Assembly: GCA_028135785.1 (NCBI GenBank)
Contig: JAOIHS010000001.1
Coordinates: forward strand, 127,194 to 191,193
Direction: 5' to 3'
Length of the DNA: 64,000 nucleotides
Source: SAR86 cluster bacterium
GTDB taxonomy: Bacteria > Pseudomonadota > Gammaproteobacteria > Magnimaribacterales > AG-339-G14
The notes under the pieces were generated by a model. That model saw only the letters and a program-made list of their open reading frames with translations, made no database searches and was not told the origin of the DNA. Positions 4,944 to 9,647 of the stretch are shown piece after piece. The translations under genes and the position numbers were made by a program. The stretch's first letter is position 1. Every line of letters begins with the position of its first letter.

Positions 4944-6206
<1,263 letters not shown>

Positions 6207-6220
6207 TTATCTAAGAAGAG

Positions 6221-6814
6221 CTACTCTTCTAACTCCCAATTATCAATAGCAAAATTGATGTCATTATTATTTTCTAAAAGCAATTTATTGAATTGTTTTC
6301 TAAAAATTGAAACCAAATCAATTCCATCGATAATTATTCCTATCACCTTCCAGTCTTTGTTTATTTTTTTCATCTTGTAAATAAAATCAAATTGTTTTCC
6401 TGCTACATCGGCCTTTAATTTGACAATAGCCAAGTCTAATCGTTCGTTGGGATGAATATAAGAATCCACTGTTACATTTGTTTTGTCTATTTCAGTAAGC
6501 GCAGAAGAATAAGAATCAAACAAAGTGTTTTTAAAATTAATAGAAAATTTGGTTCTTTGTTCTTCAGAGGCTAGCGTATAGATTTTTTTCCCAAGCACTC
6601 TTTTTGAAATTTCTTCAGGGGAAATTAGATTACTCATAATATCTTCGAGGCCTAGAAGAAATTTTTGTTTATCTGTTTTTAAAATAATTTTTGAATCTTC
6701 AATATACGAAAAAATTTTTTCATGCTCGCCATTTACAAAATTATCCACCCCCATTTTTCCAAATAAAAAAGAGGGTAGTATAATAAAAGATAAAATGAGT
6801 AATGCTTGGCGCAT
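6221..6814 (-). CDS. mlaC: MlaC-like periplasmic phospholipid-binding protein
   Basis: 197 residues with an N-terminal signal peptide (hydrophobic 3-18). The body fits the MlaC/Ttg2D family: the VLGKKIYTLASEEQRTKF segment, then FDSYSSALTEI, and the late KINKDWKVIGIIIDGIDLV strand-turn characteristic of these lipid carriers. MlaC shuttles phospholipids between the outer-membrane MlaA complex and the inner-membrane MlaFEDB ABC transporter. Here mlaF, mlaE, mlaD, mlaB and ibaG, which normally lie between kdsD and murA, are all absent, leaving mlaC alone next to murA (14 bases). The function is inferred from fold and location. Confidence 0.85.
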   Translation of the reverse strand: MRQALLILSFIILPSFLFGKMGVDNFVNGEHEKIFSYIEDSKIILKTDKQKFLLGLEDIMSNLISPEEISKRVLGKKIYTLASEEQRTKFSINFKNTLFDSYSSALTEIDKTNVTVDSYIHPNERLDLAIVKLKADVAGKQFDFIYKMKKINKDWKVIGIIIDGIDLVSIFRKQFNKLLLENNNDINFAIDNWELEE

Positions 6815-6831
6815 AGAAAAAATATATAAAT

Positions 6832-6859
6832 TTGTGTCAATTGTACATAAGTCTACTAT
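6832..6859 (+). promoter_or_regulatory. candidate promoter for kdsD-lptC-lptB
   Basis: TTGTGT (6832-6837) and TACTAT (6854-6859) are 16 bases apart, upstream of the ATG at 6880; an alternative -10, TATAAG at 6857-6862, gives a 19-base spacer. This is the divergent gap between mlaC and kdsD. Weak to moderate match and no further support. Confidence 0.35.
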
Positions 6860-6879
6860 AAGATCATTGATTGTTAGTT

Positions 6880-7863
6880 ATGAATAAAAATATTGAAAGG
6901 CCAAATTTTTTTGCTTCAGCAAGAAATACATTTAAAGAGGAGATAAATTCGCTATCAAGCTTATCTAAAACGCTAGATAAAAATAAATTTAATGAAATTT
7001 GTAACGAGATAATTAAATGTAAGGGTAATTTAGTTTTAATGGGTATTGGTAAATCAGGAAATATTGCAGCTAAAGTATCTTCTACCTTATCAAGTACTGG
7101 TTCTCCCTCATTTTATTTGAGTGCAGCTGAAGCAAGTCATGGAGATCTAGGCAGTTTAAAAAAGAGAGACTTACTAGTGGTTTTATCTTTTTCTGGAGAA
7201 ACTGAAGAAGTTTTAAAAATATTTAATTCTTGCAAAAATAAAGTAAACAAAATTATATCTATCACTGGAAATAAAAACTCTACTATTGCGAGAGAGGCCG
7301 ATCATCATCTTCTTGTGGATATAAAAAAAGAAGCTTGCCCTCTTAATCTAGCGCCGACAACGAGCTCTACAGCTATGTTGTTAGTTGGGGATGCTATTGC
7401 AATTGCTCTTCTAGAAGCTAAAAAATTTACGAAAGAAGACTTTGCTCTTAATCATCCTGGTGGAAAGCTTGGAAAAAGCCTTTTAAAAGTAAAAGACTTA
7501 ATGATCAAAAAAAGCTCCTCACCAATAGTCCATGAAAAATCAAAACTTAAAGAAGTTATATATGAAATATCTATGAAAGGATTAGGACTGACTTTAATAG
7601 AGAACAATAAAAATAAGGTTTGTGGCATTTTTACGGATGGAGATCTAAGAAGAGCTTTAAATTTAGACTTAGATATAAAAAAAGTAGAAATAAAAGAAAT
7701 CATGACGAAAAAATATTGTTTCATTGATCAAGACTCTTCAGTCAAAAACGCAGTTCTTAAAATGGAGAAAAATAAAATTTATGCTCTTGTAGTGAAGAAT
7801 AATAAAAAAGAAATTACAGGCATACTGAGAATGCATGACGTTATAGAAGCTAAAATTATTTAA
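6880..7863 (+). CDS. kdsD: D-arabinose 5-phosphate isomerase
   Basis: 327 residues from the ATG at 6880; an in-frame TTG at 6871 would add three residues and is less likely. It converts ribulose 5-phosphate to arabinose 5-phosphate for the lipopolysaccharide sugar KDO. A SIS domain (about 40-170) shows GIGKSGNIAAKV, the SAAEASHGDLG active-site stretch and the SFSGETEEVL loop, and two CBS domains follow (about 205-325). Neighbours lptC and lptB agree with the usual kdsD-kdsC-lptC-lptA-lptB cluster, but kdsC is missing. The stop overlaps the lptC start by one base. Confidence 0.96.
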   Translation: MNKNIERPNFFASARNTFKEEINSLSSLSKTLDKNKFNEICNEIIKCKGNLVLMGIGKSGNIAAKVSSTLSSTGSPSFYLSAAEASHGDLGSLKKRDLLVVLSFSGETEEVLKIFNSCKNKVNKIISITGNKNSTIAREADHHLLVDIKKEACPLNLAPTTSSTAMLLVGDAIAIALLEAKKFTKEDFALNHPGGKLGKSLLKVKDLMIKKSSSPIVHEKSKLKEVIYEISMKGLGLTLIENNKNKVCGIFTDGDLRRALNLDLDIKKVEIKEIMTKKYCFIDQDSSVKNAVLKMEKNKIYALVVKNNKKEITGILRMHDVIEAKII

Positions 7864-8408
7864 TGTCTAAACAAATTTCTATTTATTTAATTTTACTTTT
7901 AACTTTAGCTGCAATTTCATTTTTTTTAACTTCTAATATTATTGATCAAGAAGTTTCATCGCAAGATAATTTAGATTTAGAAATATTCCAAGCTAAAGAC
8001 ATCAATTTAAATCTAAATTTTTTTGAGTCTAACCTCAAAATGAATTTAAAAAGCTCTATGTTGAATGGCTTAGCTAACTCTAGTACTTTAAAAGTTTATA
8101 AGCCTAAAATCTATATTACTGATTCTGAAATAAATGTTGAAATTTATTCTGATAGTGCAGAACTTAACTACAAGAGCAATGAATTTATAATTCCGGATAG
8201 CTTGAGTTTTAAAGGCGAGTATCAAGAAAGAGAATTTTATGGAAATGCAGATAAATTGATAATAGATTTTTCTAAAAATACTTTTTATCTTTCAGAAAAT
8301 TTTATTGTGACATTCGATGGAAGAGAATATTCTGGAAAAAATATCTTTTTAGATTTAAACAAAAAAACCTTAATTAATAGTGAAAAAATAAATATAAAAG
8401 ATCTATAA
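7863..8408 (+). CDS. lptC: LPS export protein LptC-like
   Basis: 181 residues with one N-terminal membrane anchor (about 7-25) and a beta-strand-rich periplasmic part, as expected for LptC, which hands lipopolysaccharide from LptB2FG to the LptA bridge. Identification rests on length, topology and position between kdsD and lptB; sequence conservation in this family is low. The late segment (FIVTFDGREYSGKNIFLDL) resembles the repeated strand pattern shared by LptA and LptC. No separate lptA gene follows; lptB starts immediately after the stop. Confidence 0.82.
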   Translation: MSKQISIYLILLLTLAAISFFLTSNIIDQEVSSQDNLDLEIFQAKDINLNLNFFESNLKMNLKSSMLNGLANSSTLKVYKPKIYITDSEINVEIYSDSAELNYKSNEFIIPDSLSFKGEYQEREFYGNADKLIIDFSKNTFYLSENFIVTFDGREYSGKNIFLDLNKKTLINSEKINIKDL

Positions 8409-9119
8409 ATGAATTTAAAAACGATAAATTTAAAAAAGAAGTATGGCCAAAAAACCATATTAAAAGGGATCAATGCAAATATAAACATGAATTCTATAAC
8501 AGGTTTGCTTGGGCCTAATGGTGCTGGCAAAACTACTTTTTTTTATATTTTAGCTGGCCTTTTAAATCCATCAAATGGAGATATTTTTATTGATGATGAG
8601 TTAATCACTCATAAAACAATAAGAGAAAGATCCCGATCAGGTTTAGTTTATCTTCCGCAGGAACCTTCAATCTTTAGAGAGTTATCAGTTTATCAGAATA
8701 TAAAATCTGCTTTAGAAATGCAAAATCTTGAAAAAAGTAATTTAAAAATAAAGATTGATGAAATATTAAAAGAATTTGATATTACTCATTTAGCAAAACA
8801 GAAAGGCAAGTCACTTTCTGGAGGGCAAAGAAGAAGAGTTGAAATTGCTAGATCCATTGCATTAAATCCAAAATTTATTATGCTCGATGAGCCCTTTGCG
8901 GGAATAGATCCAATAGCAATTCAAGACTTAAAAATTCTAATTAATAAATTATCTATTCAAGGTCTTGGAATCCTAATTAGCGATCACAATGTAAAAGCTA
9001 CCATGGATATATGCGAAGAAATATTTATTATTAACGAAGGAAGAATTATTTCTAGTGGGAGCCCAGACGAAGTATCAAAAAATGATGTTGTTAAAAAAGT
9101 TTACCTTGGTGATTCTTAA
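8409..9119 (+). CDS. lptB: LPS export ABC transporter ATPase
   Basis: 236 residues, close to E. coli LptB (241). Walker A GPNGAGKT at 35-42, the signature LSGGQ at 136-140 and Walker B ending D160-E161 are all intact. It powers LPS extraction from the inner membrane with LptF and LptG, which are encoded at 50265-52453. The start directly abuts the lptC stop. rpoN, the usual next gene, is absent; the convergent mreD follows after 21 bases. Confidence 0.97.
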   Translation: MNLKTINLKKKYGQKTILKGINANINMNSITGLLGPNGAGKTTFFYILAGLLNPSNGDIFIDDELITHKTIRERSRSGLVYLPQEPSIFRELSVYQNIKSALEMQNLEKSNLKIKIDEILKEFDITHLAKQKGKSLSGGQRRRVEIARSIALNPKFIMLDEPFAGIDPIAIQDLKILINKLSIQGLGILISDHNVKATMDICEEIFIINEGRIISSGSPDEVSKNDVVKKVYLGDS

Positions 9120-9140: not shown

Positions 9141-9647
9141 TCATTTACCATAAGTAAATTTTATTCTAAGAAATCTAAGCAAACCAAAAATGACTGGCCA
9201 TACTAAAGCCGAAACAATAGTCACAACAAATAATTCATAAAGAATATTAATATTTAGTTCTGAAAAAAAAATTAATAAAGTAATTTGATACAGCAAAACT
9301 AAGAAAGCAACAAATATTGATTGTTGAATTGTATACAGAGCCCTAAGACGATGAAAATATCTCTGCGTTACAAATGATACTAATAAAAATAAAAAAACAT
9401 GACTTCCTAAATATATTTCTTGAGCTATGTCTAGAGTAAAACCTGCCAGTAAAGCCCATAAAAGTCCAACGCTTCTTGGAAGAGCCATATTCCAATATAT
9501 AAGAACCATGAGGCTAATCGGAAGAGAAACATAAAAGCTTAAGATATTAGAAATAAAAATTTCAAGAAAAGATGCCAAAACCATAGATGATCCAATAAAA
9601 AAATATATTGAGATAAAGTTATTTTTTTTATCGAGATATTCTGTCAT
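9141..9647 (-). CDS. mreD: rod shape-determining membrane protein MreD
   Basis: 168 residues, almost entirely hydrophobic with about five transmembrane segments, matching MreD, an inner-membrane partner of the elongasome. The WALLAGFTLDIAQEIYLGSHVFLFLL stretch (around residues 63-88) is typical of the family. It overlaps mreC by 4 bases and closes the mreBCD operon. Confidence 0.92.
   Translation of the reverse strand: MTEYLDKKNNFISIYFFIGSSMVLASFLEIFISNILSFYVSLPISLMVLIYWNMALPRSVGLLWALLAGFTLDIAQEIYLGSHVFLFLLVSFVTQRYFHRLRALYTIQQSIFVAFLVLLYQITLLIFFSELNINILYELFVVTIVSALVWPVIFGLLRFLRIKFTYGK

Follow-up and report, generated by a model that had tools for sequence, protein, structure and literature searches.

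The window, the whole 64-kb stretch of SAR86 DNA that was analysed (64,000 nucleotides), carries on its reverse strand an mlaC gene (6221-6814) predicted to encode a periplasmic phospholipid carrier of 197 amino acid residues. Downstream of it and on the same strand lies murA (4944-6206; Pfam EPSP_synthase, E = 3.1e-110), and its other flank is the divergent kdsD (6871-7863, forward strand), which scores above the cut-off of TIGR00393 for the KpsF/GutQ subfamily. Two more forward-strand genes follow: an lptC-like gene (7863-8408), scoring 32.4 bits with the TIGR04409 LptC model (cut-off 38) and 21.3 bits with Pfam LptD_N (cut-off 20.4), and lptB (8409-9119; TIGR04406, above cut-off). In E. coli, mlaB and ibaG stand between mlaC and murA, and mlaF, mlaE and mlaD, together with yrbG, stand on the opposite side of mlaC. 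The corresponding gaps in the window are 14 bp (6207-6220) and 56 bp (6815-6870, between the starts of mlaC and kdsD), and no remnant is seen in the sequence of the latter. Thus, mlaF, mlaE, mlaD and mlaB are all missing from the window locus, where the gaps leave no space for a remnant.

The mlaC gene product

The reading frame starts with a signal-peptide-like segment, and its product matches the Pfam MlaC profile (PF05494) over positions 5-164 of 166, with an E value of 3.1e-25 and 89.3 bits against a cut-off of 26. The AF2 model of the protein (mean pLDDT 84.2) was compared with known structures, giving Z scores of 20.9 for P. putida Ttg2D (4fcz), 20.7 for its lipid-bound form (5uwb; rmsd 2.0 over 176 residues), 20.4 for P. 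aeruginosa Ttg2D (6hsy) and 17.6 for E. coli MlaC (5uwa). Judged by the profile and the modelled fold, the gene is a true mlaC. An earlier note, made from the window's letters, had placed an mlaC-like gene between kdsD and murA without the rest of the mla cluster; the profile search bears out the first part of this statement, and the loci of related genomes, described below, bear out the second.

The protein is Ttg2D-like in carrying W196 (Ttg2D numbering; E. coli column 197), a tryptophan that is invariant in all 54 SAR86 MlaC sequences. The other invariant residues in this set are Phe, Tyr, Gly, Gln and Phe in E. coli columns 93, 105, 170, 180 and 181, respectively. According to excerpts of PMC8035174, W196 marks a group of MlaC proteins for which binding of cardiolipin or of two diacyl lipids has been proposed, and its conservation suggests that the SAR86 proteins belong to a subclass that takes up as many as two diacyl lipids, or a single cardiolipin. 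The position of the G195 bend before W196 holds no glycine in the 12 SAR86 sequences shown; it is occupied by N, S, E, D, A, K or T instead. At four MlaC positions on the MlaD face, within a cleft common to MlaA and MlaD, mean entropy is 2.17 in SAR86 versus 1.43 in 31 comparison sequences, which come from another MlaC group and were chosen as best-scoring matches. The basic residue K84 that excerpts of PMC10719372 describe is out of register with the numbering used here, where Lys is found at 83.

Loss of mla genes and retention of the MlaA-MlaC pair in SAR86

Of 55 SAR86 loci read, 52 have mlaC flanked by the kdsD side and by the murA side and give no blastp match to E. coli MlaF, MlaE, MlaD or MlaB. 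Of the remaining three, two (L059 and L061) are truncated by contig ends and one (L068, genome G045) is without kdsD at this place. Since 52 of the 55 loci agree, the mlaC-only layout is no artefact of the window's assembly. Neither mlaF nor mlaB gave a match at any of the 55 loci; both belong to generic families, and their absence is judged at the locus only.

Comparison of layouts points to the origin of this arrangement. In Bermanella, yrbG is followed by mlaF-mlaE-mlaD-mlaC-(101-aa ORF)-ibaG-murA-hisG-hisD. In SAR86 family f3, yrbG is followed by mlaC-murA in all five loci, with hisG-hisD after murA in four of them; family f2 has mlaC-ibaG-murA, ibaG being kept in 11 of 12 loci; and in family f1 kdsD is followed by mlaC-murA-hisG-hisD. 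Taken together, these layouts indicate that mlaF, mlaE, mlaD and mlaB were lost from an ordinary operon in which mlaC was kept. In the MlaC tree, SAR86 groups with Bermanella, which has a full mlaFED-C, and with MMPL-linked sequences of family f51, in a grouping with long branches and bootstrap support that is not settled; the sequences of E. coli, of f135 and of a comparison set of 30 stand apart from SAR86. This placement fits descent from an ordinary mla operon.

Other changes are seen on the far side of kdsD. A single LptC/LptA-like gene between kdsD and lptB (7863-8408 in the window) replaces kdsC, lptC and lptA, with no separate lptA, and at f2 and f4 loci the gene in this place encodes only about 125-142 amino acid residues. 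Beside lptB, rpoN is full-length in 11 of 12 f2 loci and in all five f3 loci, and in genera g1 and g2 of family f1 it is reduced to a conserved ORF of 75-80 residues (L034 3504-3740, L035, L037, L038, L041 8574-8801, L042 8356-8592, L043, L044, L047 and L060). This ORF matches only residues from about 413 to 477, the C-terminal end, of E. coli RpoN, which is known as the RpoN box; it corresponds to a stand-alone sigma-54 DNA-binding piece. The window is without even this remnant, as lptB ends at 9119 and is followed by mreD (9141-9647, reverse strand).

The window's assembly has a size of 0.95 Mb and is 64.9% complete, and SAR86 assemblies are small in general (0.7-1.8 Mb). Counts for the order cover 203 genomes from four families and 22 genera, with 40 of high quality (completeness of 90% or more, contamination no higher than 5%). 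MlaC was identified in 176 and MlaA in 157 of the 203 genomes, and each of them in all 40 high-quality genomes; in the family of the window (40 genomes), the numbers are 36 and 35, respectively. The profile of the MlaE permease matched none of the 203 genomes, the 40 high-quality ones among them, and none of the 40 in the window's family. Similarly, the MCE domain profile had no match in the 40 family genomes or in 33 further genomes of the order, which include all 27 listed with a completeness of 90% or more; single-contig genomes are among these 73. With no MCE match, MlaD is absent from the genomes tested. All four profiles match in E. coli and Caulobacter, which served as controls, and the same MlaE search matches 244 of 275 genomes sampled from the class, some of them only about 1.0-1.4 Mb in size.

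These counts bear on two ways in which the earlier note had accounted for the missing genes. For the MlaE permease, they refute its suggestion that the ABC transporter is encoded elsewhere, and an MCE protein as the other partner of MlaC is refuted in the genomes tested. The wider possibility, that MlaFED is present in relocated form or has diverged too far to be seen, can appeal only to the incompleteness of many assemblies, including that of the window's own genome. Against it stand the lack of MlaE in the whole sample and of MCE in 73 genomes, together with the success of the same MlaE search in most of the class, and we have rejected it as extremely improbable and already largely refuted.

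Within family f1, the median dN/dS of mlaC is 0.09 (84 close pairs), next to 0.07 for kdsD (101 pairs), 0.04 for murA (64 pairs) and 0.16 for lptC (59 pairs). SAR86 mlaC is under purifying selection. The earlier note had also called mlaC an orphan. This is correct for the locus, where the gene stands without mlaF, mlaE, mlaD and mlaB, but not for the genome, in which a search for MlaA found a match elsewhere (G000:C2:15329-15895, E = 2.2e-67); MlaC thus belongs to a retained pair. An acidic-hydrophobic stretch lies at or near the C-terminal end of MlaA in 34 of 34 SAR86 rows (33 genomes). In E. coli, residues D243 and D244 of the MlaA tail (excerpts of PMC10719372) and L245, I248 and I241 (excerpts of PMC10245069) matter for MlaC binding. 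The SAR86 tail resembles this docking tail, and we infer that it docks MlaC in the same way. Among the MlaA rows, 14 of 15 from family f1 show a lipobox cysteine, as do none of 10 from f2 (one of which is a fused ORF), one doubtful case of six from f3 and none of three from f4 (loci L087-L106 and L062-L066); outside family f1, MlaA may be a non-lipidated outer-membrane protein.

The gene adjoining SAR86 mlaA was considered as a source of a partner and rejected, the neighbour being an Mrp/ApbC-type P-loop protein, so named from its sequence. At L090 (5510-6919, genome G079), an Mrp-like protein and MlaA form one ORF of 469 residues, which is either a fusion or the result of a lost stop.

Order-wide retention of MlaA and MlaC, the absence of MlaE and MCE matches, purifying selection on mlaC and the MlaA tail together argue that SAR86 holds a two-part MlaA-MlaC shuttle without MlaFEDB, the absence of MlaF and MlaB being that seen at the locus. 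A different role for the carrier has also been considered, namely that MlaC has left the Mla route and been recruited to another lipid, as was HpnM in hopanoid clusters, where this MlaC-like protein is encoded beside the RND protein HpnN. The window's MlaC does match the NCBIfam HpnM model (TIGR03481) weakly, with 40.3 bits; however, the cut-off of this family is far higher (160.1), and both the co-retention of MlaA and the descent from an mlaFEDCB locus point to a role in Mla. Such recruitment is therefore very unlikely.

MMPL-family genes in other lineages without MlaE

In the class sample (275 genomes, with a completeness of at least 85% asked for and the window's own genome included), 31 genomes are MlaE-negative. 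Both MlaA and MlaC were found in 22 of these, MlaC only in one (G448), MlaA only in two (G326 and G467) and neither in six, an association of MlaA with MlaC at p = 2e-4 in Fisher's test when kinship is ignored. Four of the 22 belong to SAR86, and the other 18 are spread over 13 families. No MCE domain was detected in 15 of these 18 genomes (12 families); the other three (G379, G449 and G470) encode multi-domain MCE proteins. Families f42 (three genomes), f51, f102 and f135 (two genomes each) lack MlaE throughout the sample. In families f6 and f148 the second genome carries MlaE, and some of the single-genome MlaE-negative cases may be assembly gaps. The mlaC and mlaA genes are adjacent in G225, G333, G438 and G449.

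We read the surroundings of mlaA in all 18 genomes outside SAR86, the contig of G470 being only 3 kb long. In G249 and G379, genes for large proteins of 836 and 819 residues, respectively, stand between mlaA and mlaC on one strand (the intergenic distances in G379 are 44 bp and 123 bp), forming an apparent mlaA-MMPL-mlaC operon. In G333 and G438, hisD-hisG-murA is followed by a gene for 819 or 818 residues, convergent with mlaC, and then by mlaA-yrbG-kdsD diverging from mlaC. Seen by family, the order is mlaA-mmpL-mlaC on one strand in f51, and in f135 the former mla locus holds mmpL, mlaC and mlaA next to one another. G290 has a gene for 840 residues followed by mlaA-yrbG, in a stretch without mlaC, and a second mlaA of G225 has a related large gene beside it (35% identity over 471 positions, the gene being cut by the end of the stretch). 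The five full-length proteins (L212 5546-8056, L219 8298-10757, L215 4302-6761, L221 4650-7106 and L213 5196-7718) share 36-60% mutual identity, and all five match Pfam MMPL (PF03176) with E values from 8.5e-25 to 2.8e-35, as members of the RND superfamily of transporters. When two of them were scanned with NCBIfam models, the HAE3 and HpnN models matched below cut-off, with 123.3 and 124.1 bits for HpnN (TIGR03480) against a cut-off of 751.85. Overall, MMPL genes at the mlaA/mlaC locus in five genomes and the related large gene at the second mlaA of G225 make six of 18 genomes, in four families, a tally taken in MlaE-negative genomes only.

MMPL genes were not seen in the stretches read from the other 12 genomes, in the 64-kb window or at any SAR86 locus read. 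Nor were they found in 60 stretches of 20 kb each (1.2 Mb) from three closed SAR86 genomes, covering 34% of G006, 37% of G190 and 25% of G176. Assuming one copy per SAR86 genome at an independent place, the chance of missing it in all three samples is about 0.3, so that this absence is weak evidence. Three weaker matches in G006 (E = 0.004-0.063) were discarded: one falls in an AcrB-type pump according to Pfam, one in a 604-aa ORF whose sequence looks like that of SecD, and one immediately behind that ORF. A search for MMPL in plasmids gave zero matches.

If RND proteins drove an Mla route, its outer-membrane, inner-membrane and periplasmic components would be expected to be encoded together in this manner, and the RND protein appears to be the best candidate for the inner-membrane partner in MMPL-linked lineages outside SAR86. 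A partner of this type does not figure in the earlier note.

A proposed lipid route and its relation to known systems

In our judgement, the best explanation overall, and a reasonably probable one, is that mlaF, mlaE, mlaD and mlaB were lost, that MlaA and MlaC still act as a lipid-transfer pair, and that an inner-membrane partner outside the MCE family has taken the place of MlaFEDB. In this proposal we infer that a partner exists, which lipid is carried and in which direction, and that MlaA and MlaC dock in SAR86. After loss of the four genes from an ancestral mlaFEDCB operon, with mlaC and the distant mlaA kept, outer-membrane MlaA would recruit MlaC through its acidic C-terminal tail and hand it phospholipid as in E. 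coli. Periplasmic MlaC would then carry the glycerophospholipid, and the non-MCE inner-membrane protein would take lipid from MlaC or give lipid to it. In other Gammaproteobacteria without MlaFED, the best candidate for this protein would be the RND transporter of the MMPL family whose gene adjoins mlaA or mlaC or stands between the two.

A passive arrangement would have no inner-membrane partner at all, with MlaC buffering lipid or exchanging it by collision, down a gradient and without an ATPase. It agrees with the small size of SAR86 assemblies, with the SAR86 loci read, where no new conserved partner gene adjoins mlaC or mlaA, and with the 12 of 18 comparable genomes in which the stretches read have no MMPL gene by mlaA. 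On the other hand, MMPL linkage in other lineages speaks for a partner, and, according to excerpts of PMC10719372, the whole MlaC pool of E. coli presumably carries lipid when MlaD is missing, and MlaA goes to the closed state. Because loss of MlaD is thought to have these consequences, some acceptor for the lipid of MlaC is expected, and we consider the passive arrangement unlikely. Lipids of SAR86 are probably handed to an inner-membrane partner other than the known motor.

AsmA-like proteins of the YhdP/TamB type, the second kind of partner that the earlier note had named, could also form the inner-membrane end, with MlaC and MlaA moving lipid outward or closing a cycle with them. The presence of such proteins is unspecific, since they accompany complete Mla systems too, and in the loci read their genes are not linked to mlaC or mlaA. 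In favor of their involvement, a YhdP-like protein is present in SAR86 genome G190 (PF13116, E = 5e-11; its 41.7 bits fall short of the cut-off, 46), and work on anterograde transport of phospholipids implicates AsmA-like proteins (excerpts of PMC10665443). On balance, this assignment is improbable, more so than the passive arrangement.

Returning to a replaced motor, we tentatively propose, as a possibility short of an even chance, that Gammaproteobacteria have a second, ABC-free Mla pathway, with an RND transporter of the MMPL family, presumably driven by protons, in place of MlaFEDB, so that MlaA, the RND protein and MlaC would make a complete route, and that SAR86 uses this or another MCE-free engine. 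There is a long-standing debate on the direction in which Mla transport runs and on what powers it. Retention of MlaA and MlaC throughout an order without MlaE or, where tested, MCE suggests a selected role of the outer half without the known motor, and such lineages are natural systems for finding both this role and the replacement partner. As few marine Gammaproteobacteria are as abundant as SAR86, the finding concerns a common cell envelope. In the open-licence PMC literature, taken without supplements, we found no report of MlaA and MlaC kept without MlaFEDB and no paper joining MlaA, MlaC and MMPL. In PMC10665443, Mla parts were mapped over 1083 genomes with stress on MlaDEF without MlaABC, and section 9 of that paper makes no mention of the reverse.

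The SAR86 pair shares with the Mla system of E. coli and Pseudomonas (Ttg2; OmpC-MlaA, MlaC and MlaFEDB) the MlaA and MlaC families, the position between kdsD and murA, the MlaC fold and the acidic MlaA tail. It differs in that the genomes tested gave no match to MlaE or MCE and the locus has no mlaF or mlaB, and in that, for three of the four SAR86 families, the majority of the MlaA proteins examined have no lipoprotein cysteine. The hopanoid pair HpnM/HpnN likewise joins an MlaC-like protein to an MMPL/RND protein, but SAR86 MlaC and the MMPL proteins of other lineages score far below the cut-offs of both families. The nearest solved structures are those of Ttg2D from P. aeruginosa and P. 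putida, which represent the two-lipid MlaC class in excerpts of PMC8035174 and have W196 in common with SAR86; in contrast, Ttg2D works within a full ttg2 ABC operon and has the helix-bending G195, which the SAR86 sequences shown do not. Finally, the minimal Mla of the Veillonella type, as described in excerpts of PMC10665443, is also a reduced system, consisting of MlaEFD only, without MlaA or MlaC. It is the mirror image of SAR86: in Veillonella the transporter stays and MlaA and MlaC are absent, whereas in SAR86 the transporter is absent and MlaA and MlaC stay.
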